From: Piscinibacter sp.
GTDB taxonomy: Bacteria; Pseudomonadota; Gammaproteobacteria; Burkholderiales; Burkholderiaceae_C
NCBI GenBank assembly: GCA_017983795.1
Contig: JAGOAS010000007.1
Span: forward strand, 98,819 to 162,818
DNA length: 64,000 bases
Direction of reading: 5' to 3'
Part shown: in pieces, positions 31,436-46,216 of the stretch
Position numbering within the stretch: position 1 is the first letter of the stretch
Layout of the letters: the number at the start of each line of letters is the position of its first letter
The notes under the pieces: generated by a model
What the model was told of the DNA's origin: nothing
What the model saw: only the letters and a program-made list of their open reading frames with translations
The model's database searches: none
Position numbers and translations under genes: made by a program

Positions 31436-32476
31436 TCAAGGCAGGTTCTCGCGCAGCACGATGCTCAGGCGCAGCGTCTCGACGCCGGCCAGCGCGTCGC
31501 GGCCGTCGCGCAGGTTGGCGAAGATGCGCACCGCGTTGCCGACCACGCTCTGCGGGCTCTGCGTGATCACCGCGTCCAGCGTGCCGTCGATCAGCAGCGC
31601 GCGCGTATCGGGCGTCAGGCCGTGGCCGATGAACACCACCTTCTGCTCGCGGCCGGCGAGCTTGAGCGCGCGCGCCACGCCGTCGGAAGCGCCGCCGATG
31701 TTGTAGATGCCGGCCAGCTGCGGATGCTGCTCGAGCAGCGCGAGCGTCTGGCGCTCGTTGGTGGCGGCATCGTCCTGGCCCTCGCGCAGCCCGGCCACCT
31801 GCAGCTGCGGGAACATCTCCTCGACCAGGCTGAGGAAACCCATCTCGCGCTCCTCGTGGCCGCGGTAGCTGCGGCTGCCGGCGATCAGCCCGACGGTGGC
31901 CGCGCGCGCGCCGATGAAGCGACCCAGCAGCAGCGCCGCGGTGCGCCCGGCGGCGCGGTTGTCCAGCCCGACATAGCCGGCGCGGCGCGAGTTCGAGAGG
32001 TCCGACACCAGCGTGACCACCGGCACGCCCTCCTCGGCCAGTGTGTGCACCGCCTCGCGCACCAGCGGATGTTCGAGCGGCATCAGCGCCACGCCGTCGC
32101 TGCGCCGGCCGTGGTGCAGCAGCCGCTCGGCCAGCACGCGCGGATCGAAGCCCTCGATGGTGTGGGCGCGGCAGCGCACGTTGAGCGGCGCGAGCTGGTC
32201 TTCCATGTAGCCCACCGTCTCGCCGAGCATGCGCAGGTAGCGGTTGGTGCCGGCCGGCAGCAGGAAAGTCAGGCGCAGCGGCTTGGCGGCGAGCGCGGCG
32301 AAGGGGCCGTCTTCCGGCAGGTAGGCCAGGCGCGCCGCGGCCTCGAGCACGCGCTGCACGGTGACGTCGCGCACGCCGGGGCGGCGGTTCAGCACGCGGT
32401 CGACGGTGGCCGTCGACACGCCCGCCGCGCGGGCCACGTCGGTGGCGCGCGCGCGCCGCTGCGGGGCCTCGCTCAT
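31436..32476 (-). CDS. LacI-family transcriptional regulator
   Basis: A 346-residue repressor with an N-terminal HTH (ATDVARAAGVSTATVDRVLN, residues about 11-30) and a type I periplasmic-binding-like effector domain (residues about 70-340). It lacks a signal peptide. It is divergent from the TRAP/RuBisCO-like operon across a 120-bp region that holds a promoter and a palindrome. It is therefore the likely local regulator, with its inducer probably the transported sugar acid or a metabolite. The second hinge reads RPGVRDVTVQRVLEAAARLA. Confidence 0.9.
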   Translation of the reverse strand: MSEAPQRRARATDVARAAGVSTATVDRVLNRRPGVRDVTVQRVLEAAARLAYLPEDGPFAALAAKPLRLTFLLPAGTNRYLRMLGETVGYMEDQLAPLNVRCRAHTIEGFDPRVLAERLLHHGRRSDGVALMPLEHPLVREAVHTLAEEGVPVVTLVSDLSNSRRAGYVGLDNRAAGRTAALLLGRFIGARAATVGLIAGSRSYRGHEEREMGFLSLVEEMFPQLQVAGLREGQDDAATNERQTLALLEQHPQLAGIYNIGGASDGVARALKLAGREQKVVFIGHGLTPDTRALLIDGTLDAVITQSPQSVVGNAVRIFANLRDGRDALAGVETLRLSIVLRENLP

Positions 32477-32502
32477 ACATCAAATTTCATCAAGGCTGCC
32501 GT

Positions 32503-32560
32503 TTGACGGATATGCATGCGCCCCCCTATCGTCTCCGCAGATCGCAGCGATGATGCATCA
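32503..32560 (+). promoter_or_regulatory. Promoter and candidate operator for the TRAP/RuBisCO-like operon
   Basis: A sigma70-like promoter reads TTGACG (32503-32508), an 18-base spacer and TATCGT (32527-32532). A perfect 10-bp palindrome TGATGCATCA (32551-32560) lies about 12 bases after the expected start of transcription, with a second GCATCA at 32565. This placement fits repression by the divergent LacI-family protein. The palindrome lacks the central CG common in LacI operators. Confidence 0.42.
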
Positions 32561-32596
32561 GCTTGCATCAGATCCACAAGACAAGGAGACCATCGA

Positions 32597-33619
32597 ATGA
32601 AGCCGATCAGCCGTCGTCACCTGTTGCGCCATGCAGCCGCCCTGCCGGCCGCCGGCTTGGGCCTGGGCCTGCCGCGTTTCGCGCAGGCCGCGCCCGAGTT
32701 CTCGCTCAAGTACGGCAACAACCTGCCGCTCACGCACCCGCTGAACATCCGCGCCCAGGAAGCGGCCGATCGCGTGCTGAAGGAGTCCGGCGGCCGCGTC
32801 GAGATCAAGATCTTCCCGAACAACCAGCTCGGCGGCGACACCGACATGCTCTCGCAGGTGCGCAGCGGCGGCATCGACTTCTTCACGCCCTCGGCGCTGG
32901 TGGTCGCGACCCTGGTGCCGGTGGCGGCGATCAACGCGGTGGGCTTCGCCTTCAGCGACTACGGCCAGGTGTGGAAGGCGATGGACGGCGGCCTGGGCGC
33001 GCACGTGCGCGAGGCGCTGGCCAAGATGCGTCTGCACGCCTTCGAGAAGATGTGGGACAACGGCTTCCGCCAGACCACCACCAGCAACAAGCCGATCCAG
33101 AGCGCCGCCGACATGAGCGGCATGAAGATCCGCGTGCCGGTCAGCCCGCTGTCCATCGCGATGTTCAAGGGCCTGGGCGCGGCGCCGGCCAGCCTGCAGT
33201 TCAGTGAGGTCTACTCGGCGCTGCAGACCAGGATCGTCGACGCGCAGGAAAACCCGCTGCCCATCATCCAGGTGGCCAAGCTCTACGAGGTGCAGAAGTA
33301 CTGCTCGCTGACCAACCACATCTGGGACGGCTTCTGGTTCATCGCCAACGGCGCCAGCTGGGGCCGCCTGCCGCCCGATCTGCAGAAGGTCGTCGCCGGC
33401 GCGATCAACGACGCCGGCCTGAAGCAGCGCGAGGACATCAAGAAGCTCAACGAGACGGTGCAGGCCGACCTCGCGGCCAAGGGCCTGCAGTTCAACGCGC
33501 CCAAGTCGGACAGCTTCCGCGCCGCGCTGCGCGAGGCCGGCTTCTACGCCGACTGGAAGAAGCGCTTCGGCGACGAGGCCTGGGGCCTGCTCGAGCAGGC
33601 GGTCGGCAAGCTCGCCTGA
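32597..33619 (+). CDS. TRAP transporter solute-binding protein, DctP type
   Basis: A 340-residue periplasmic receptor of a TRAP transporter. A twin-arginine-like leader (SRRHLLRHAA) precedes the DctP fold. The conserved carboxylate-binding Arg is expected in MSGMKIRVPVSPLS, followed by FSEVYSALQTRIVDAQENPL. The ligand is probably an organic or sugar acid. It is the first gene of the operon, with an AAGGAG ribosome-binding site. The fused permease follows after 13 bases. Confidence 0.93.
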   Translation: MKPISRRHLLRHAAALPAAGLGLGLPRFAQAAPEFSLKYGNNLPLTHPLNIRAQEAADRVLKESGGRVEIKIFPNNQLGGDTDMLSQVRSGGIDFFTPSALVVATLVPVAAINAVGFAFSDYGQVWKAMDGGLGAHVREALAKMRLHAFEKMWDNGFRQTTTSNKPIQSAADMSGMKIRVPVSPLSIAMFKGLGAAPASLQFSEVYSALQTRIVDAQENPLPIIQVAKLYEVQKYCSLTNHIWDGFWFIANGASWGRLPPDLQKVVAGAINDAGLKQREDIKKLNETVQADLAAKGLQFNAPKSDSFRAALREAGFYADWKKRFGDEAWGLLEQAVGKLA

Positions 33620-33632
33620 GGCCGTGGGCGCC

Positions 33633-35504
33633 ATGATCTCCGCCTCGCCGCTGGATGCGCGCGCGCCGGCCGGCCCGGCGCTGGCCTTCGCGATCGACCG
33701 CGGCCTCGGCCGCGCCATCGAGTGGCTGGCCGCGGCGCTGGTGCTGGTCGAGATCGGCGTGCTGTTCTCCGGCGTCGTGGCGCGCTACGTCTTCCATTCG
33801 CCGCTGGTCTTGTCCGACGAACTCGCCTCCATCCTGTTCCTGTGGCTGTCCATGCTCGGCGCGGTGGTGGCGCTGCGGCGCGGCGAGCACATGCGCATGA
33901 CGGCGCTGGTCAACGGCCGTTCGCCGCAGACGCGCGCGCTGCTCGAGACCTTCGCGATCGCCGCCTCGGTGGCCTTCCTCGCGCTGGTGCTGGCGCCGGC
34001 CTTCGACTACGCCGCCGAGGAGCGCTTCATCGTCACGCCGGCGCTGGAGATCAGCAACGGCTGGCGCGCCGCCGCCATCCCGCTGGGCATGGCGCTGATG
34101 CTGGTGACCGCGCTGCTGCGCCTGCCGCGCGTGGCCACGCCCGGGCGCATCGTCGTCGCGCTGGCCGGCACGGCGGCGATCGTCGCCGCCTTCTGGCTGC
34201 TCGCCCCGCTGTTCGGCACGCTGGGCAAGTGGAACCTGGTGGTGTTCTTCGTCGGCGTGGTCGCGGTGACTGTGTTCAGCGGCGTGCCGATCGCCTTCTC
34301 GTTCGCGCTGGCCACCTTCGGCTACCTCGCGCTGACCACCTCGACGCCGCTGCCGGTGATCGTCGGGCGGCTCGACGAGGGCATGTCGCACCTGATCCTG
34401 CTGGCGGTGCCGCTGTTCATCTTCCTCGGCTCGCTGATCGAGATGACCGGCATGGCGCGCGCGATGATCCAGTTCCTCGCCGGCCTGCTCGGCCATGTGC
34501 GCGGCGGGCTGAGCTACGTGCTGATCGGCGCGATGTACCTGGTGTCGGGTATCTCGGGCTCGAAGATCGCCGACATGGCGGCGATCGCGCCGGTGCTGTT
34601 CCCCGAGATGCAGAAACGCGGCGCCAAGCCGGGCGACCTGGTGGCGCTGCTCGCGGCCACCGGCGCGCAGACCGAGACCATTCCGCCGTCCATCGTGCTG
34701 ATCACCATCGGCTCGGTCACCGGCATCTCGATCGCGGCGCTGTTCACCGGCGGCCTGCTGCCGGCGGTGGTGCTGGGCCTGGCGCTGTGCAGCGTGGTCT
34801 GGTGGCGCTACCGCGGCGAAGACCTGAGCGGCGTGCAGCGCTTTCGCGCCGGCGAGATCGCGCGCTTCGCGCTGGTTGCGCTGCCGGCCATCGCGCTGCC
34901 CTTCGTGATCCGCGCCGCGGTGGTCGAGGGCGTGGCCACCGCCACCGAGGTATCGACCATCGGCATCGTCTACGCGGCGCTGGTCGGGCTGCTGGTCTAC
35001 CGCCGCTTCGAGTGGTCGCGCCTGCTGCCCATGCTGGTCGAGACGGCCTCGCTGTCGGGCGCGATCATCTTCATCGTCGGCTGCGCCACCGCGATGGCCT
35101 GGGGGCTCACGCAGTCGGGCTTCTCGCAGGATCTCGCCGCGCTGATGAAGACCATCCCCGGCGGCGCGTACGGCTTCCTGGCGGTCTCCATCGTCGCCTT
35201 CGTCGTGCTCGGCAGCGTGCTCGAGGGCATTCCGGCGATCGTGCTGTTCGGCCCGCTGCTGTTCCCGATCGCGCGCGCCGTCGGCGTGCACGAGGTGCAC
35301 TACGCGATGGTGGTGATCTTCGCCATGGGCATCGGCCTGTTCGCGCCGCCCTTCGGCGTGGGCTACTACGGCGCCTGCGCGATCAGCCGCGTCGACCCGT
35401 CCGAGGGCATGCGCCCCATCGTCGGCTACGTGATCGCGCTGCTCGTCGGCCTGGTGCTGGTGGCGGCGGTTCCCTGGTTCTCGATCGGCTTCCTGAAGGT
35501 CTGA
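33633..35504 (+). CDS. TRAP transporter fused permease (DctQM type)
   Basis: A 623-residue inner-membrane protein joining the small DctQ subunit (residues about 20-170, four segments) to the large DctM subunit (residues about 210-620). The DctM part includes VPLFIFLGSLIEMTGMARAM and GAQTETIPPSIVLI. The ATG at 33633 is used; a GTG three codons upstream is also possible. It couples uptake of the ligand from the preceding binding protein to the Na+ or H+ gradient. Confidence 0.93.
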   Translation: MISASPLDARAPAGPALAFAIDRGLGRAIEWLAAALVLVEIGVLFSGVVARYVFHSPLVLSDELASILFLWLSMLGAVVALRRGEHMRMTALVNGRSPQTRALLETFAIAASVAFLALVLAPAFDYAAEERFIVTPALEISNGWRAAAIPLGMALMLVTALLRLPRVATPGRIVVALAGTAAIVAAFWLLAPLFGTLGKWNLVVFFVGVVAVTVFSGVPIAFSFALATFGYLALTTSTPLPVIVGRLDEGMSHLILLAVPLFIFLGSLIEMTGMARAMIQFLAGLLGHVRGGLSYVLIGAMYLVSGISGSKIADMAAIAPVLFPEMQKRGAKPGDLVALLAATGAQTETIPPSIVLITIGSVTGISIAALFTGGLLPAVVLGLALCSVVWWRYRGEDLSGVQRFRAGEIARFALVALPAIALPFVIRAAVVEGVATATEVSTIGIVYAALVGLLVYRRFEWSRLLPMLVETASLSGAIIFIVGCATAMAWGLTQSGFSQDLAALMKTIPGGAYGFLAVSIVAFVVLGSVLEGIPAIVLFGPLLFPIARAVGVHEVHYAMVVIFAMGIGLFAPPFGVGYYGACAISRVDPSEGMRPIVGYVIALLVGLVLVAAVPWFSIGFLKV

Positions 35505-35528
35505 CCGGTCGTTCTTTCGGAGTTTCCA

Positions 35529-36080
35529 ATGAGTCGATTCTTCGGGCCTGTGCGTCAGGCCGGCTACGTGGTGCGCGACATCGAGGCGGCGATGGACTAC
35601 TGGAGCCGCGAGCTGGGCATCGGCCCGTGGTTCTACAACCCGCGCGTGCCGATCGTGAACTACCGCTACGAGGGCCAGGCCTGGCAGCCGCACAACTCGG
35701 TGGCGCTGGCCAATGCCGGGCCGCTGCAGATGGAGCTGATCCAGGTGCGCAACGACGTGCCCTCGATGTACCGCGATTTTCTGCAGGCCGGCCACCTCGG
35801 CCTGCAGCACGTCGCCTACTGGACCGAGGACTTCGACGCCGACCTGGCGCGCGCACAGGCGCGAGGCATGCGCGTGTGCATGAGCGGCGAGGTCGGCGAG
35901 CGCGGCCGCTTCGTCTACTTCGCGCCCTCCGACCACCCGGGCGTGCACCCCGGCACGGTGATCGAGCTGTCCGAGGTCGCCGGGCCCAAGGGCACGCTGT
36001 TCCGCATGATCCGCGAGGCCTCGGAAGGCTGGGACGGCAAGGATCCGGTGCGGCCCTTCCCCGACCTGTCGACGCTGTGA
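35529..36080 (+). CDS. VOC-family metalloprotein in the RuBisCO-like operon
   Basis: A 183-residue glyoxalase-fold protein with two beta-alpha-beta-beta-beta modules. Likely metal ligands are Q10 (in VRQAGYVV, where many relatives have His), E70 (MELIQ), H94 (LQHVAYW) and E146 (VIELSEV). The pattern fits methylmalonyl-CoA epimerase/glyoxalase-like enzymes that stabilise enediolates. It lies between the transporter and the RuBisCO-like gene, which suggests isomerisation, epimerisation or cleavage of a pathway intermediate. A specific reaction cannot be assigned. Confidence 0.84.
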   Translation: MSRFFGPVRQAGYVVRDIEAAMDYWSRELGIGPWFYNPRVPIVNYRYEGQAWQPHNSVALANAGPLQMELIQVRNDVPSMYRDFLQAGHLGLQHVAYWTEDFDADLARAQARGMRVCMSGEVGERGRFVYFAPSDHPGVHPGTVIELSEVAGPKGTLFRMIREASEGWDGKDPVRPFPDLSTL

Positions 36081-36091
36081 GCCGCAGCAGC

Positions 36092-37363
36092 ATGGACACG
36101 CTGCAGGCGCGCTACCTGATCGAGACGCCGCTCGATCCGGCGCAGGTCGCCGAGGTGCTGGCCGGCGAGCAGAGCAGCGGCACCTTCGTGCGCGTGGCCG
36201 GCGAGAGCGACGAGCTGCGCGCGCGCAGCCGCGCCATCGTCGAGCACATCGAGGAGCTCGAACCCGCAAGCGCGCCCAGCCTGCCCAGCGCCTGGCTGGA
36301 GCGCCAGGGCCGTGGCGGGCCGTGGCGGCGCGCGCGCATCACGGTGGCCTTTCCGCTCGCCAACCTGGGCGCCAACTTGCCGACGCTCGCCGCCACCGTG
36401 GCCGGCAATCTCTACGACCTCGGCGAAACCAGCGGCGTGCGCCTCGAGCACCTCGCGCTGCCGGCCGCCTGGCGCGCGCGCTTCGAGCGCCCGCGCCACG
36501 GCGTGGCCGGCACGCGCGCGCTGACCGGCGTGGCCGACGGGCCGCTGGTCGGCACCATCGTCAAGCCCAACGTGGGCCTGTCGGCCGAGGCCACGGGCGC
36601 GCTGGTCGGCGAGCTGTGCGAAGCCGGCATCGATTTCGTCAAGGACGACGAGGTCTGCGCCAACCCCGACCATGCGCCGATCGCGCAGCGCATCAAGGCC
36701 GTGATGGCGCACGTTCGCCGCTGGCAGGAGCGCAGCGGCAAGCGCGTGATGGTCGCCTTCAACATCACCGACGAGCACGACGCCATGCTGCGCCATGCCG
36801 AGCTGGTGGCCCAGGAAGGAGGCAGCTGCGTGATGGCGAGCCTGAACTGGTGCGGCTTCTCCTCCATCCAGGCGCTGCGCCGCCGCACCGACCTGGTGGT
36901 GCACGGCCACCGCAACGGCTTCGGCATGTTCGCGCGCCATCCGGCGCTGGGCATGGACTTCCAGCCCTGGCAGACGCTGTGGCGGCTGGCCGGCGTCGAC
37001 CACATGCACGTGCACGGCCTGCAGGGCAAGTTCGCGCAGAGCGATGCCGAGGTGATCGACGGCGCGCGCGACTGCCTCGCGCCGCTGGCCGATGCAAGCG
37101 ACACGGCCGACCGCGTGATGCCGGCCTTCTCGTCCGGGCAATGGGCCGGCACCGTGCCGGCAACGATCGCCGCGGTACCCAGCGGCGACCTGCTGTTCAT
37201 GGCCGGCGGCGGCATCCTCGCGCATCCGGGCGGGCCGCGCGCCGGCGTCACCAGCCTGCGCCAGGCCTGGGCCGCGGCGCGCGACGGTATCGCGCTGGCC
37301 GACGCCGCAGCCGCCGCGCCGGAGCTGCGCGAGGCACTCGCCTTCTTCGGCGCGAAGCACTGA
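36092..37363 (+). CDS. RuBisCO-like protein (form IV), probable enolate-forming enzyme
   Basis: A 423-residue RuBisCO large-subunit homologue. It keeps K158 (GTIVKPNVGL, matching RuBisCO K175), the carbamate Lys and metal ligands K184-D186-E187 (FVKDDE), His in VVHGHRNGF, and loop-6 K313 (GLQGKFAQ). The phosphate-binding site is altered: SSGQW (347-351) replaces the SGG motif, while AGGG (371-374) is retained. A four-carbon acid sugar kinase gene follows within 10 bases. The pairing matches OiaX (decarboxylase) or OiaT (transcarboxylase/hydrolase) with kinase OiaK from D-apionate catabolism. CO2-fixing activity is not expected. The exact substrate is uncertain. Confidence 0.9.
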   Translation: MDTLQARYLIETPLDPAQVAEVLAGEQSSGTFVRVAGESDELRARSRAIVEHIEELEPASAPSLPSAWLERQGRGGPWRRARITVAFPLANLGANLPTLAATVAGNLYDLGETSGVRLEHLALPAAWRARFERPRHGVAGTRALTGVADGPLVGTIVKPNVGLSAEATGALVGELCEAGIDFVKDDEVCANPDHAPIAQRIKAVMAHVRRWQERSGKRVMVAFNITDEHDAMLRHAELVAQEGGSCVMASLNWCGFSSIQALRRRTDLVVHGHRNGFGMFARHPALGMDFQPWQTLWRLAGVDHMHVHGLQGKFAQSDAEVIDGARDCLAPLADASDTADRVMPAFSSGQWAGTVPATIAAVPSGDLLFMAGGGILAHPGGPRAGVTSLRQAWAAARDGIALADAAAAAPELREALAFFGAKH

Positions 37364-37373
37364 GGAGCGGGCG

Positions 37374-38657
37374 GTGCGCTGCGCCTTCTACGGCGACGAC
37401 TTCACCGGCGCGACCGACACGCTCGCCACCTACGCCGAGGCCGGCCTGGCGAGCGCGCTGTTTCTCGGCGTGCCCGACGCGCGGCGCCTGGCCGCCAGCG
37501 GCCGGCTCGAGGTGCTGGGCATTGCCGGCGCGGCCCGCGCCCTCGCGCCGCAGGCCATGGCCGACGAGCTGGCGCCGGTGGCCGCCTTCTTCCGCACGCT
37601 CGACGTGCCGCTGCTGCACTACAAGTGCTGCTCGACCTTCGACAGCGCGCCGCAGGTCGGCAACCTCGCGGCGGCGATGGCTGCGCTGCGCCCCGCGGCG
37701 GCGCATCCGCTGGTGGCGATCCTCGGCGGCCAGCCCAGCCTGGGGCGCTACTGCTGCTTCGGGCAGTTGTTCGCCAGCGCAGGTGCCGAGGGCGCCGTGC
37801 ACCGCATCGATCGCCATCCGACCATGAGCCGCCACCCGGTCACCCCCATGCACGAGGCCGACCTGCGCCGCCATCTCGGCAGCCAGGGGCTGGCGCGCAT
37901 CGAACTGGTCGATTGGCGCGCGCTCGACGACGAGGCGCGCCTGGACGGCGTGCTGGACGCCGCCCTCGCGCAAGCCCCCGACGCCGTGCTCTTCGACGTG
38001 CTGCACGAGCGCCACCTCGCCACGCTGGGCCGCCAGCTCTGGCAGCGCGCCGCCGTGGCGCGGCTGCTGGCGGTGGGTGCGAGCAGCGTCGCGCAGGCCT
38101 TGCTCGCGCATTGGCGCGCGAGCGGCCAGCTGGCCGCCGAGGCGCCAGCCGCCGGCATCGCGCCCGCCGAGGGGCCGGTATTCGCCATCGCCGGCAGCCG
38201 CTCGCCCGTGACGGCGCGCCAGGTCGAGCACGCCGTGGCCGCCTACGCGGTCGAGCGCGTCTCGGTGCAGCGCCTGCTCGGCGCGCGCGAGACCATCGTC
38301 GAGGCCAGCGCCCGCGGGTTGGCGCAGGGGCGCTCGGTGCTGGTCCAGGTCGACCCGGCCGACGAGTCGGCCGCCTCGGCGCAGGCGGTGGCCCAGGCCA
38401 CGGCACAGCTGCTTGCCGAGGTGCTGCAGCGCGCCCCGGCCGTGCGGCGCGTGGGCATCGCCGGCGGCGACACCTCCAGCCTGGCGGCACGCCATCTCGG
38501 CGTCTGGGGGCTGGAATTCGGCGGCCGCCTAGCCGCCGGCGTCACGCTGGTGCGCGCCCGCGCCGACGCGCCGCGCCTGGACGGCCTGGAGCTGATGCTC
38601 AAGGGCGGGCAGATGGGCCCGCCCGAACTGTTCCTGACCCTGATCGACGGGGCTTGA
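37374..38657 (+). CDS. Four-carbon acid sugar kinase family protein (DUF1537)
   Basis: A 427-residue kinase. The N-terminal domain starts MRCAFYGDDFTGATDTLATY, the sugar-acid binding DDFTGATD motif. The C-terminal nucleotide-binding domain contains VGIAGGDTSSLAARHLGV and KGGQMGPPELFL. The translation start is GTG at 37374. DUF1537 kinases phosphorylate C4 and branched sugar acids, such as 3-oxo-isoapionate by OiaK. As the last gene of the operon it would make the phosphorylated substrate of the RuBisCO-like protein. Confidence 0.9.
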   Translation: MRCAFYGDDFTGATDTLATYAEAGLASALFLGVPDARRLAASGRLEVLGIAGAARALAPQAMADELAPVAAFFRTLDVPLLHYKCCSTFDSAPQVGNLAAAMAALRPAAAHPLVAILGGQPSLGRYCCFGQLFASAGAEGAVHRIDRHPTMSRHPVTPMHEADLRRHLGSQGLARIELVDWRALDDEARLDGVLDAALAQAPDAVLFDVLHERHLATLGRQLWQRAAVARLLAVGASSVAQALLAHWRASGQLAAEAPAAGIAPAEGPVFAIAGSRSPVTARQVEHAVAAYAVERVSVQRLLGARETIVEASARGLAQGRSVLVQVDPADESAASAQAVAQATAQLLAEVLQRAPAVRRVGIAGGDTSSLAARHLGVWGLEFGGRLAAGVTLVRARADAPRLDGLELMLKGGQMGPPELFLTLIDGA

Positions 38658-38940
38658 TCGGACGCGGTCGAGGGATCTGCCGCAGCGGTCGGCATGAAAC
38701 TATTCCGCAAACGCATGACACCCCCGGGCTCCGGTGGTTACCGCGCCGGTACACTGATTTCACAATCCTCCCAGCTGCTCGCATTCGTGGCTCGCCGCCG
38801 CAACCCGGCCCCGCCGCGAAACTCGCCGTAACCCAGGCAAGCGCTGCGATGGCGGCATTGGGCAAGCCCTCCGGACCTCCCACCCGGGCCCTGCCGGCTT
38901 CCCCAATCCCGCCTTTTTGACTTTGAAGATTGGAAGCGAC
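38658..38940. other. Intergenic region upstream of pckG
   Basis: This 283-base gap separates the DUF1537 kinase gene from pckG. I see no convincing gene, repeat or complete promoter. An ATGACA hexamer (38715) and TACACT (38750) are present but wrongly spaced. Only a weak GGAAG ribosome-binding site precedes the pckG start. Confidence 0.6.
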
Positions 38941-40806
38941 ATGAACCGTCCCGTGCTCGAAGGGGTGCGCCTGAACGCGCCTGCCTACGTCCGCCACGCC
39001 CGCCTGCTGGCCTGGGTCGCCGAGATGGCGGCGCTCACCGAAGCCAAGGACGTCTACTGGTGCGACGGCTCCCAGGAAGAGTACGACCGCCTGTGCGGCC
39101 AGCTCGTCGAGGGCGGCACGATGAAGCGCCTCAACCCCGAGCTGCGCCCCAACAGCTACCTCGCCTGCAGCGACCCGAGCGACGTGGCGCGCGTGGAAGA
39201 CCGCACCTTCATCTGCTGCGAGCGCAAGGAAGACGCCGGCCCGACCAACAACTGGATGGCCCCGGCCGAGATGCGCGCGTTGCTGCAGACCGGCGAGCGC
39301 GCGCTGTTCCGCGGCGCGATGCGCGGCCGCACGATGTACGTGGTGCCGTTCTCGATGGGCCCGATCGGCTCGCCGATCGCGCACATCGGCGTCGAGCTGT
39401 CCGACAGCCCGTATGTCGCCGTCAACATGAAGATCATGACGCGCATGGGCCGCGCCGTGCTCGACGTGCTGGGCAGCGACGGCTTCTTCGTGCCCGCCAT
39501 GCACACCGTGGGCGCGCCGCTGGAGCCGGGCCAGAAGGACGTGAGCTGGCCCTGCAACAAGACCAAGTACATCGTCCACTACCCCGAGACGCAGGAGATC
39601 TGGAGCTACGGCTCGGGCTACGGCGGCAACGCGCTGCTGGGCAAGAAGTGCTTCGCGCTGCGCATCGCCTCGACCATGGGGCGTGATCAGGGCTGGCTGG
39701 CCGAGCACATGCTGATCCTCGGCGTCACCTCGCCCAAGGGCAAGAAATACCACGTGGCGGCGGCCTTCCCGAGCGCCTGCGGCAAGACCAATTTCGCGAT
39801 GCTGATCCCGCCGGCCGGCATGAACGGCTGGAAGGTGACGACCATCGGCGACGACATCGCCTGGATCAAGCCGCATGCCGACGGGCGCCTCTACGCCATC
39901 AACCCCGAGGCGGGTTATTTCGGCGTGGCGCCGGGCACCAACCACAAGACCAACGAGAACTGCATGGCCAGCCTCAAGCGCGACGTGATCTTCACGAACG
40001 TCGCGCTGACCGACGACGGCGACGTCTGGTGGGAAGGCATGAGCGACACGCCGCCGGCGCACCTGACCGACTGGCAGGGCAAGGACTGGACGCCGGCGCT
40101 CGCCAAGGAAACCGGCGCCAAGGCCGCGCATCCGAACGCGCGCTTCACCGTGGCCGCCACCAACAACCCGGCGCTCGACGCCGAGTGGGACAACCCGAAC
40201 GGCGTGGCGATCGACGCCTTCATCTTCGGCGGCCGCCGCTCCACCACCGTGCCGCTCGTCACCGAGGCGCGCAACTGGACCGAAGGCGTCTACATGGCCG
40301 CGACCATGGGCTCGGAAACCACCGCCGCCGCCGCCGGTGCGCAGGGCGTGGTGCGCCGCGACCCCTTCGCCATGCTGCCCTTCATGGGCTACAACATGAG
40401 CGACTATTTCCAGCACTGGCTGGGCCTGGGCGCCAAGCTGCAGGCGGCCGGCACCAAGCTGCCGAAGATCTACTGCGTCAACTGGTTCCGCAAGGGCGCC
40501 GACGGCAAGTTCGTCTGGCCCGGCTACGGCGAGAACATGCGCGTGCTCGAGTGGATGGTCGAGCGCATCGAGGGCACCGGCGGCGGCGAGGAGCATGTGT
40601 TCGGCGTGACGCCGAACTACGAGCACCTCAACTGGAGCGGCCTGAACTTCACGCGCGAGCAGTTCGACCAGGTCACCCGCATCGACCACGCCGAGTGGAA
40701 GGCCGAGATGGCGCTGCACGGCGAACTGTTCCAGCAGCTCGCCTACCACCTGCCCGAGGCGCTGAAGCAGACCAAGGCGAAGATCGAGGAGCGCCTGGCC
40801 GTCTGA
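38941..40806 (+). CDS. pckG: Phosphoenolpyruvate carboxykinase (GTP)
   Basis: Converts oxaloacetate to PEP with GTP, the first committed step of gluconeogenesis. The sequence is the GTP-dependent type: the catalytic P-loop [12 protein letters not shown] has C280, G281, K282 and T283, and [15 protein letters not shown] is present. At 621 residues the length is normal. The ATG at 38941 ([17 protein letters not shown]) begins family sequence. It is monocistronic, with a strong terminator 23 bases after the stop. Confidence 0.96.
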
Positions 40807-42525: not shown

Positions 42526-42545
42526 CAAGTGGTCTAGGCCACTTT
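42526..42545 (+). promoter_or_regulatory. HutC operator A, upstream of hutU
   Basis: The near-palindrome CAAGTGGTCTAGGCCACTTT is centred on CTAG. It shares AAGTGG-(T/C)-CTAG with two other sites at 48204 and 52353, all in front of histidine-utilisation transcription units. It lies 29 bases before the hutU ATG and just after a weak promoter (TTGACG at 42493, CATGCT at 42516). Confidence 0.75.
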
Positions 42546-42573
42546 GTCAAACCACTCCTTCGGAAGCGCCGCC

Positions 42574-44303
<1,730 letters not shown>

Positions 44304-44307
<4 letters not shown>

Positions 44308-44882
44308 GCGCCGCGCGGTGCATCGACGTCGGGGCGATTGCGCCGCAGCGCTGGAAGAACGGCGCCGGGCTGACGCGCGAGATCGCGCTCGGCCCCGCGG
44401 GCTCGGGCCTGGACGACTTCGGCTGGCGCTTGAGCGTGGCCGAGCTCGAGCGCGACGCGCCGTTCTCGGCCTTCCCCGGCATCGATCGCTGCATCGTCGT
44501 GATCGACGGCGCGGGCATGGCCTTGCACGACGCGGCCGGCGCGCCGGTGCGAACGCTCGCGCCGCTCCAGCCTTGGGCGTTCGAGGGCGAACGTGCGCTG
44601 CACGCGCGCCTGACCCACGGGGCCTGCCGCGACTTCAACGTGATGACGCGCCGCGGCGCCTGGCGTGCCGAGCTGCGGGTGTTGCGTGAACCTGCGCCAC
44701 TGGCGCGCGGCGACGTCACGGCACTGCTCGTGGTGCAAGGCCGCTGGCGACTCGGCGGTGAGCGCTGCGAGGCGCTGCAAGGCCTGCTGCTCGATGGCGC
44801 GGGCGAAGCCGTCCAAGCCGTGCCGCTCGAAGCAAACGCCGCCCTGCTGCACGTGCGCCTGTGCCACGATCGCCGGCCATGA
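44304..44882 (+). CDS. hutD: HutD family protein
   Basis: A 192-residue bicupin-fold protein of the HutD family. Its role is not fully settled; in Pseudomonas it appears to limit hut expression, possibly by binding formylglutamate. Typical sequence is [15 protein letters not shown] near the start and [13 protein letters not shown]. It begins in an ATGA overlap with hutU and ends in another with hutF, so it is translated as part of the operon. Confidence 0.92.
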
Positions 44883-46216
44883 AGCGTCTTCACGCCGAAC
44901 TCGCGCTGCTGCCCGGCGGCTTCGCTCGCGAGGTGTTGATCGCCTGGGACGAGCAGGGCCGGCTCACCGAGGTGCAGCCCGATGCGGCACGGCCCGAGGG
45001 TGCAGAACTCATCGCCGGCCTCGTCGTGCCCGGCCTGCCCAACCTGCACTCGCACGCCTTCCAGCGCGCCTTCGCCGGCCTCACCGAGTACCGCGGCAGC
45101 ACGCAGGACAGCTTCTGGACCTGGCGCGATCTCATGTACCGCTTCGCCGGTGCGATCACGCCCGACGAGCTGGAAGCGATCGCCACGCAGCTCTACGTCG
45201 AGATGCTGCGCGCAGGCTACACCTCGGTGTGCGAGTTCCACTACGTGCACCACGATGCGGCCGGCCGGCCTTATGCGAACCCGGCCGAGATGTCGCTGCG
45301 CCTCGTGGCCGCGGCGCGCCGCGCGGGCATCGGCCTGACGATGCTGCCGGTGCTCTATCAGACCAGCGGCTTCGGCGCCGAGCCGCCGCGCGAGGATCAG
45401 AAGCGTTTCCTCAACGATGTGGCCGGCCTGCTGCGCATCGTCGAGGCCTTGCGCGCCCAGGGCGTGCGCAGCGGCGTCGCGCCGCACTCGCTGCGCGCCG
45501 TGCCGCCGGCGGCATTGAAGGATCTGCTCGACGGCATCGCCGCGATCGACGCCGGCGCGCCCATCCACATCCACGTCGCCGAGCAGATGCAGGAGGTCGA
45601 CGACTGCCTCGCCTGGAGCGGCCAGCGTCCCGTGCAGTGGCTGCTCGATCACGCGCCGGTGGACGAGCGCTGGTGCCTCGTGCACGCCACCCATCTCGAC
45701 GCCGCCGAGCGCGAGCAGGCCGCGCGGCGCGGCGCCGTCATCGGCCTCGCCCCCAGCACCGAGGCCAATCTCGGCGACGGCCTCTTCGATCTGCCCGCGT
45801 GGCACGGCGCCTGGGGCATCGGCTCCGACAGCCATGCCAGCGTCGATGCTGCCGAGGAACTGCGCCTGCTCGAATACGGCCAGCGCCTCGCGCGCCAGCA
45901 GCGCAACGTGAGCGTGGCCGAGGCGATGTGGAGCGCCGCGGTGGCCGGTGGCGCGCAGGCGGCGGGCCGGCCGGTGGCGGGCCTCGCCGTGGGCCAGCAG
46001 GCCGACTTCGTCTTGCTCGCCGATGCCATGCTCGATGGGCTCGCGCCCGCCGAGCGCCTTGCCAGCCACGTCTTCGCCAGCCACCGCCGCGAGGCGGTGC
46101 ACGAGGTGTGGGTGGGCGGGCGGCGTGTGGTGCATGATGGTCGCCACGCCGAGGCGGAAGCCGCCGAGCGAGGCTTCCTCGCCGCGCGCGCCCGGCTGCG
46201 GGAGGCCTTGCGATGA
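44879..46216 (+). CDS. hutF: Formimidoylglutamate deiminase
   Basis: Amidohydrolase that converts N-formimidoyl-glutamate to N-formyl-glutamate and ammonia. Metal ligands are seen in [31 protein letters not shown] and IGSDSHAS. At 445 residues it is full length. Its presence with hutG shows the five-step (formylglutamate) route rather than the four-step formiminoglutamase route. Both ends overlap neighbours by four bases. Confidence 0.96.

Follow-up and report, generated by a model that had tools for sequence, protein, structure and literature searches.

The 64,000-nucleotide stretch of Piscinibacter sp. analysed here (the window, meaning the whole stretch; assembly GCA_017983795.1, contig JAGOAS010000007.1, positions 98,819 to 162,818 of the forward strand) harbours at 31436-38657 a conserved operon in which the gene of a RuBisCO-like protein (RLP) lies between genes for a predicted metalloenzyme of the VOC superfamily and a DUF1537 kinase, behind those of a tripartite ATP-independent periplasmic (TRAP) transporter. 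All parts belong to known families, and as a set they look like an undescribed sugar-acid route that dispenses with the oxidising enzymes used by the known one. There is little doubt that the operon serves sugar-acid catabolism. An earlier sequence-only reading of this DNA had proposed a variant or new sugar-acid pathway, and this is supported by the position of the RLP outside the group of the D-apiose enzyme OiaX and the presumed group of OiaT, and by the conservation of the VOC gene. The six genes named in that reading are all in place, one on the minus strand and five divergent from it on the plus strand, and the gaps inside the operon (4, 24, 11 and 10 bases) stay below the 25 bases given there, the largest being 24. 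The features are as follows.

31436..32476, minus strand: LacI-family regulator with a Peripla_BP_4 sugar-type ligand domain (Pfam), divergent from the operon
32477..32596, no strand: divergent promoter region with two CATCA-N5-CATCA direct repeats, the repeat being conserved among orthologous regions
32597..33619, plus strand: DctP TRAP solute-binding protein with a Tat-type signal (Pfam DctP; nearest structure 4oan)
33624..35504, plus strand: fused DctQM TRAP permease (Pfam DctQ and DctM)
35529..36080, plus strand: predicted VOC-superfamily metalloenzyme (Pfam Glyoxalase_4) with Q10/E69/H94/E146 as presumed metal ligands; a proposed isomerase of 2-oxo/3-oxo acids
36092..37363, plus strand: RLP of 423 aa (Pfam RuBisCO_large), a distinct clade in the tree, characterised further by PDB 3nwr and by its residues
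37374..38657, plus strand: DUF1537 sugar-acid kinase, OiaK-like (Pfam SBD_N and NBD_C; OiaK model)

A contig scan yielded 422 RLP relatives, and the 80 best were retained; these are the nearest relatives, so the conservation counts are biased to close kin. They come from many soil and plant-associated bacteria, among them Paraburkholderia, Variovorax, Polaromonas, Azospirillum and Bosea. Upstream DNA of 600 bases or more was available for 78 loci; in 77 of these the VOC gene was located directly 5' of the RLP gene, on the same strand and within 201 bases (within 80 bases in 72 of the 77), the exception being L003. This co-occurrence exceeds chance, and the VOC gene, which the sequence-only reading had singled out for a neighbourhood check, is thus conserved in homologous clusters. 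Where 600 or more bases follow the RLP gene (78 loci), the kinase gene was always found 3' of it, within 150 bases in 77 loci and at 182 bases in L071. All 73 loci that extend 5.5 kb or more upstream had a LacI match above 250 bits, and matches above 300 bits to DctP and DctQM were present in 63 and 62 of them. Six loci (L038, L049, L062, L066, L075 and L081) lacked a TRAP match; of these, L049 was checked and encodes an SBP_bac_3 ABC binding protein ahead of the VOC gene. The transporter is apparently exchangeable, with LacI, VOC, RLP and kinase as the constant part. No further conserved neighbour gene was found among these loci, the next commonest family occurring in only 18. Conservation at the sequence level is similar for the VOC protein (68-77% identity) and the RLP (68-78%). 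In Paenalcaligenes (L066, 9986-12571) a single open frame of 861 codons spans RLP and kinase and includes the Pfam domains of each, the one such case among 123 RLP rows. It appears to be a natural RLP-kinase fusion, or at least to be read without a stop, which fits consecutive steps.

A less biased sample was drawn from 398 Pseudomonadota genomes, in which six OiaX above the cut-off and, beyond the window's own locus, 20 RLP loci (378-473 bits) were found, the latter fetched with up to 8 kb per side. The VOC gene was present in seven of the 20, namely in 6/6 loci with a window-clade RLP and in 1/14 others (L129). The VOC protein was also searched for in two orders, that of the window (300 genomes) and that of genome G217 (297 genomes); 27 places were fetched, and the matches in G822, G798, G861, G823, G035 and G287 were left out of the fetched set. 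Among the 14 loci with a VOC of at least 68% identity, 13 possess RLP and kinase and one (L170) neither. The stretch of L159 contains no match to LacI. Locus L170 encodes a LacI-like protein, a distant TRAP system and a VOC at 68%, with isopropylmalate/tartrate-dehydrogenase-like and lactonase-like genes close by, while RLP and kinase genes are missing from its surroundings. In the seven loci with VOC paralogues at about 49-53%, no match to RLP, kinase or TRAP was obtained, and the five neighbourhoods inspected were uninformative.

Among the NCBIfam models, the RLP scored best on the OiaX equivalog NF042437 with 413 bits, below the cut-off of 700; on the model of true RuBisCO it reached 225 bits (cut-off 497), and with Asn at the K177 equivalent it also lacks the complete catalytic set of a true RuBisCO. 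Similarly, the best model for the kinase was the OiaK equivalog NF042436 with 310 bits, below the cut-off of 700, compared to 165 bits for the 3-oxo-tetronate kinase model. The kinase passes the Pfam gathering score in both domains (SBD_N 171, NBD_C 84 bits). Judged by these curated limits, RLP and kinase are predicted relatives of the D-apiose enzymes and not members.

In a tree of 62 of the 123 RLP rows then available, the window RLP belongs to a clade of 31 rows (30 VOC loci and L003) with a support of 100/100. The OiaX proteins form a separate clade of seven rows, also at 100/100. A third group comprises 16 rows (94/66), 15 of these at 97/87, and has no VOC except in L129. L114, L123 and L135, all without VOC, have long branches and were left unplaced by the tree; they are counted in wherever neighbours and residues of the third group are given (n=18 loci). 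L119 of the third group sits in a true D-apiose cluster (ApnL 919 bits, cut-off 750), and in L127, also of this group, ApnL was seen by tblastn only. Because the RLP of L119 lies in a D-apiose cluster and is not OiaX, we take the third group to be presumably OiaT. A review describes decarboxylation and transcarboxylation/hydrolysis reactions for the RLPs of D-apiose catabolism (PMC6302742). The sequence-only reading had suggested a tree with both enzymes: the window RLP is clearly separate from the OiaX clade, and it also falls outside the group that holds the RLP of L119, an inferred and not a characterised OiaT reference. Among the unplaced loci, L114 is located on a plasmid of Haloarcula sp. 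JP-L23 and combines TRAP genes, a short-chain dehydrogenase/reductase (SDR), an RLP with 46% identity to the window's and a DUF1537 kinase, with a PGDH_C-like gene nearby; it may represent an RLP sugar-acid route in archaea.

In spinach numbering, the equivalents of K175, K201, D203, E204, H294, R295 and K334 are kept in the window-clade RLPs (87 rows of VOC loci, without L129). The row of L066 drops out of this alignment, its kinase half having been aligned, and L139 shows one real change, N at 348. K158, K184-D186-E187 and K313, which the sequence-only reading had listed for the window RLP, are all present. The equivalents of H325 and H327 are His in the window clade and in the third group (18/18), and Gln at both positions in 7/7 OiaX. 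At the K177 equivalent, the window clade has Asn, the third group Ser and OiaX Ala, and a third His (HVHG) is limited to the window clade. The SSGQW motif, regarded earlier as a special feature, is present in the window RLP, but we discarded it as a hallmark, having found GSGQW/CSGQW in OiaX and SSGQ/SSAQ in the third group. The nearest solved RLP is PDB 3nwr, presumably from Paraburkholderia fungorum, with 692 bits over the full length; the next chain reaches 177 bits.

The VOC protein matches Glyoxalase_4 with 78.8 bits (gathering score 27). Q10, E69, H94 and E146, chosen by eye from the sequence alignment as metal ligands, are invariant wherever aligned in 87 VOC sequences, and are found in the paralogous VOCs and those beside PdxA-like genes as well. 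Q/E/H/E is the metal-ligand set of human glyoxalase I, which works by proton transfer, and finding it here argues for a metal-assisted isomerase over a dioxygenase. An extradiol-type dioxygenase was considered and set aside, as Q/E/H/E was found and not the H-H-E triad of such enzymes.

Neighbouring enzymes were counted by tblastn at a minimum of 38% identity (40% for SDR). The 100 VOC loci used for this were preselected for VOC, with L003 and L005 (367 bases upstream) excluded, so the VOC count there is uninformative. They span 5.5-21.3 kb, four of them less than 10 kb, and absence means none in that DNA at this identity. In the OiaX loci (n=7), a TPI-like isomerase was near in four, RpiB in four and PGDH_C in three; in the third group the TPI-like isomerase and RpiB were found in none, PGDH_C in nine and SDR in five of the loci. 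In the VOC loci, the TPI-like isomerase, RpiB and PGDH_C were each found in 0/100. The sequence-only reading had noted the absence of dehydrogenases and isomerases. For the tetrulose-phosphate isomerases and PGDH_C this extends to all 100 loci; for dehydrogenases it is not general, as SDR occurs in four operons. Single matches were a PdxA-like one in L049 (40%) and a partial ApnL-like one in L134 (38% over 239 residues). The PGDH_C gene is likely to encode the ApnO oxidoisomerase, since it is the oxidoreductase left over in L119 and is met again in clusters with OiaX. An excerpt on another strain gives the oxidoisomerase as a separate gene in its D-apiose cluster (PMC11747546). The VOC gene thus seems to occur where the oxidoisomerase or SDR does not; L124, L125 and L135 possess a related TRAP permease (DctQM 65-70%) and SDR, and no VOC. 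The window genome gave no match to ApnL or PGDH_C, in searches in which no positive control rang, though the ApnL model matches L119.

In L129, the LacI, DctP, DctQM and VOC proteins show 59-78% identity to those of the window, yet the RLP lies inside the third group, and the kinase has 58-60% identity to the kinases of L124 and L127 and 37% to that of the window. Since this locus joins LacI, TRAP and VOC genes to a third-group RLP-kinase pair, both RLP-kinase pairs plausibly take the same intermediate, delivered by the VOC enzyme.

The closest solved relative of DctP is PDB 4oan (RPB_2686 of Rhodopseudomonas palustris HaA2, 60% identity), the modelled ligand of which is presumably (S)-2-acetolactate. 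The skeleton of (S)-2-acetolactate is that of 3-oxo-isoapionate. A fold of DctP reached a mean pLDDT of 35 without alignment and a mediocre 56 with 14 sequences, and Foldseek then ranked 4oan first. A review names 2-acetolactate as one of the new TRAP ligands found in a survey, but does not say for which protein (PMC5812351).

From these observations we infer the substrate, the order of steps and the products as follows. The TRAP system would import a small branched acid that already bears an oxo group. The VOC enzyme, with its metal, would convert this acid by isomerisation into a 3-oxo acid. The product is probably 3-oxo-isoapionate or a closely similar compound, and the step would correspond to the isomerase part of the ApnO oxidoisomerase reaction, minus the oxidation. 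The kinase, by homology to OiaK, would phosphorylate the terminal hydroxyl. The RLP would then cleave the 3-oxo-acid phosphate in the manner of OiaT, by transcarboxylation followed by hydrolysis, unlike OiaX, which only decarboxylates. The products of OiaT are 3-phosphoglycerate and glycolate, and cleavage of this type would make a tetrulose-phosphate isomerase unnecessary. The regulator LacI would sense a metabolite of the pathway. The parts of this scheme differ in strength. That the RLP acts on a 3-oxo-acid phosphate produced by the kinase is probable, and cleavage of the OiaT kind is slightly favoured over plain decarboxylation. The chances that the VOC protein is an isomerase ahead of the kinase, one of the two roles (isomerising or cleaving) that the sequence-only reading had offered for it, are about even, and the whole chain with a branched five-carbon oxo acid is tentative, somewhat short of even. 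A bolder version is doubtful: the VOC enzyme would catalyse a cofactor-free alpha-ketol rearrangement on an imported branched 2-oxo acid and feed a third functional class of RLP, which would hydrolyse a carboxy-keto sugar phosphate as RuBisCO does its six-carbon intermediate. Alpha-ketol migration is half of the reaction of ketol-acid reductoisomerase and of ApnO.

Several observations weigh against the pathway proposed here. The VOC at about 60-62% identity (six loci, L172-L176 and L181) is accompanied by a PdxA-like dehydrogenase in 6/6 and by an RLP in 0/6, and a dehydrogenase beside a related VOC is a poor fit with an imported acid that is already oxidised. Two kinases of these clusters scored 451 and 477 bits on the OiaK model, against 310 for the window's. 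The 78% RLP relative L003, the nearest one, has the kinase and no VOC in 1.4 kb upstream (3.6 kb contig). Four of the 100 VOC loci (L020, L035, L079 and L118) carry an extra SDR gene between lacI and dctP, and 4/18 third-group loci have no PGDH_C, SDR or VOC nearby. The presumed OiaT identity of the third group is drawn from L119 and L127 and not from comparison with a characterised OiaT sequence, and the group does not hold together firmly in the tree (94/66; L114, L123 and L135 lie outside). A free source of such an oxo acid in the environment is not known to us. Five of the six loci with the PdxA-like gene also encode an OiaK-like kinase, a DeoR protein and a DeoC-type aldolase. These clusters suggest that the VOC step can precede or accompany different kinase-led endings, and that the substrate of the VOC enzyme should not be viewed too narrowly; they are possibly a second undescribed route.

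The same genes could act on a linear acid. In that case a linear C4-C6 2-oxo aldonate would be imported, the VOC enzyme would be OtnI-like and transfer a proton from the 2-oxo to the 3-oxo form, the kinase would be OtnK-like, and the RLP would decarboxylate a linear 3-oxo-acid phosphate, for example to dihydroxyacetone phosphate or ribulose 5-phosphate. The D-erythronate pathway shares this three-step logic including a DUF1537 kinase, the presumed ligands of the VOC protein match those of human glyoxalase I, and PdxA-like enzymes, as found beside the related VOC, belong to linear four-carbon acid routes. Kinase and RLP, however, score best on the OiaK and OiaX models (the kinase with 310 versus 165 bits for 3-oxo-tetronate kinase), and the RLP cassette is exchanged with that of the group found in the D-apiose cluster (L129 versus L119); we regard a linear substrate as unlikely. 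Alternatively, the VOC protein may be an epimerase or racemase that makes the kinase substrate from the wrong stereoisomer of an imported 3-oxo acid. The presumed ligand of 4oan, an alpha-hydroxy-beta-oxo acid, would suit this, and so would the distant solved relative 3gm5 and a match to methylmalonyl-CoA epimerase (TIGR03081), which is a weak one of 26.6 bits against a cut-off of 115. C2 of 3-oxo-isoapionate carries no hydrogen, which makes a simple epimerisation impossible and a shift of the carboxylate necessary; we regard an epimerase as quite unlikely.

Two further explanations, both improbable, keep the operon within known D-apiose catabolism. If it were the known route ending in OiaT, the upstream enzymes would be encoded elsewhere and the VOC protein would be an accessory. 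The homology of kinase and RLP, the exchanged cassette in L129 and the partial ApnL-like match in L134 agree with this, but the window genome gave neither an ApnL nor a PGDH_C match (in the searches without a ringing control), PGDH_C is near none of the 100 VOC loci, and VOC protein and RLP are conserved to a similar degree. If instead the RLP were an OiaX-type decarboxylase, the isomerases would have to be encoded elsewhere. OiaX is its best model, and the TPI-like isomerase and RpiB are also not near in 3/7 OiaX loci, so their absence is no proof. Against this stand the score below the cut-off, the separate clade, the two His residues that are Gln in OiaX, and the lack of isomerase genes near any of the 100 VOC loci.

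Between lacI and dctP, the direct repeats CATCA-N5-CATCA are located at 32478-32492 and 32556-32570, with TTTGAC at 32502 and TATCGT at 32527. The repeat was present in 62/78 regions before lacI (up to 170 bases, the window's included), where shuffles gave 0.18 expected, and in 0/88 control stretches taken downstream of the kinase gene. It is likely the operator and we regard it as a candidate. For a regulator of the LacI family, a direct repeat with a 10-base period is an unusual form of operator. A palindromic LacI operator was rejected as a general signal, as TGATGCATCA occurred exactly in only 12/78 regions (shuffles 0.0), compared to the 62/78 of the direct repeat. The open frame of DctP extends back to 32516; by eye, a start at 32597 is more likely, with an ATG behind AAGGAG and a twin-arginine motif.

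On a different contig, the host genome (4.2 Mb, 99.7% complete) contains another RuBisCO match with a higher score (G000:C16:128771-129694, 458 bits versus 211 bits). Given this full RuBisCO large-chain match, the bacterium may fix CO2 besides carrying the RLP. Downstream of the operon, a phosphoenolpyruvate carboxykinase gene and, beyond it, an apparent urocanase and other histidine-degradation genes were recognised by eye (38917-40806 and 42544-46216 of the window cover these neighbours); no tie to the operon was seen.

We recognised no account of an RLP-VOC-DUF1537 operon in the open-licence literature searched; the main D-apiose paper (Carter 2018), which lies outside that set, may mention the group. 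To our knowledge, several groups of form IV RLPs have no known reaction. In this RLP clade the RLP is part of a conserved unit together with importer, regulator, kinase and an additional enzyme, which makes its reaction searchable. If the VOC enzyme does isomerise an oxo acid, RLP pathways would gain an entry that needs no oxidation, and the VOC superfamily a reaction new to it.

Among known systems, the OiaX loci resemble the window in that the RLP adjoins the DUF1537 kinase in six curated loci, and share the K175, K201, D203, E204 and K334 equivalents and the SGQW motif; they differ by 39-42% identity to the window RLP, Gln at both the H325 and H327 equivalents and the lack of VOC. The presumed OiaT group (that of L119 and L127) is similar to the window in keeping both His residues, in having no isomerases near, in its mostly adjacent kinase and in a cassette exchangeable in L129. 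In contrast to the window, it has 44-53% identity, Ser instead of Asn at the K177 equivalent, no third His of HVHG, and PGDH_C or SDR near in 14/18 loci with no VOC. The D-erythronate pathway OtnI-OtnK-OtnC has the same order of isomerase, DUF1537 kinase and decarboxylase with no dehydrogenase at those steps, but its isomerase and decarboxylase belong to other families. The closest relative of the RLP with a known structure, PDB 3nwr, has an entry that states no function.

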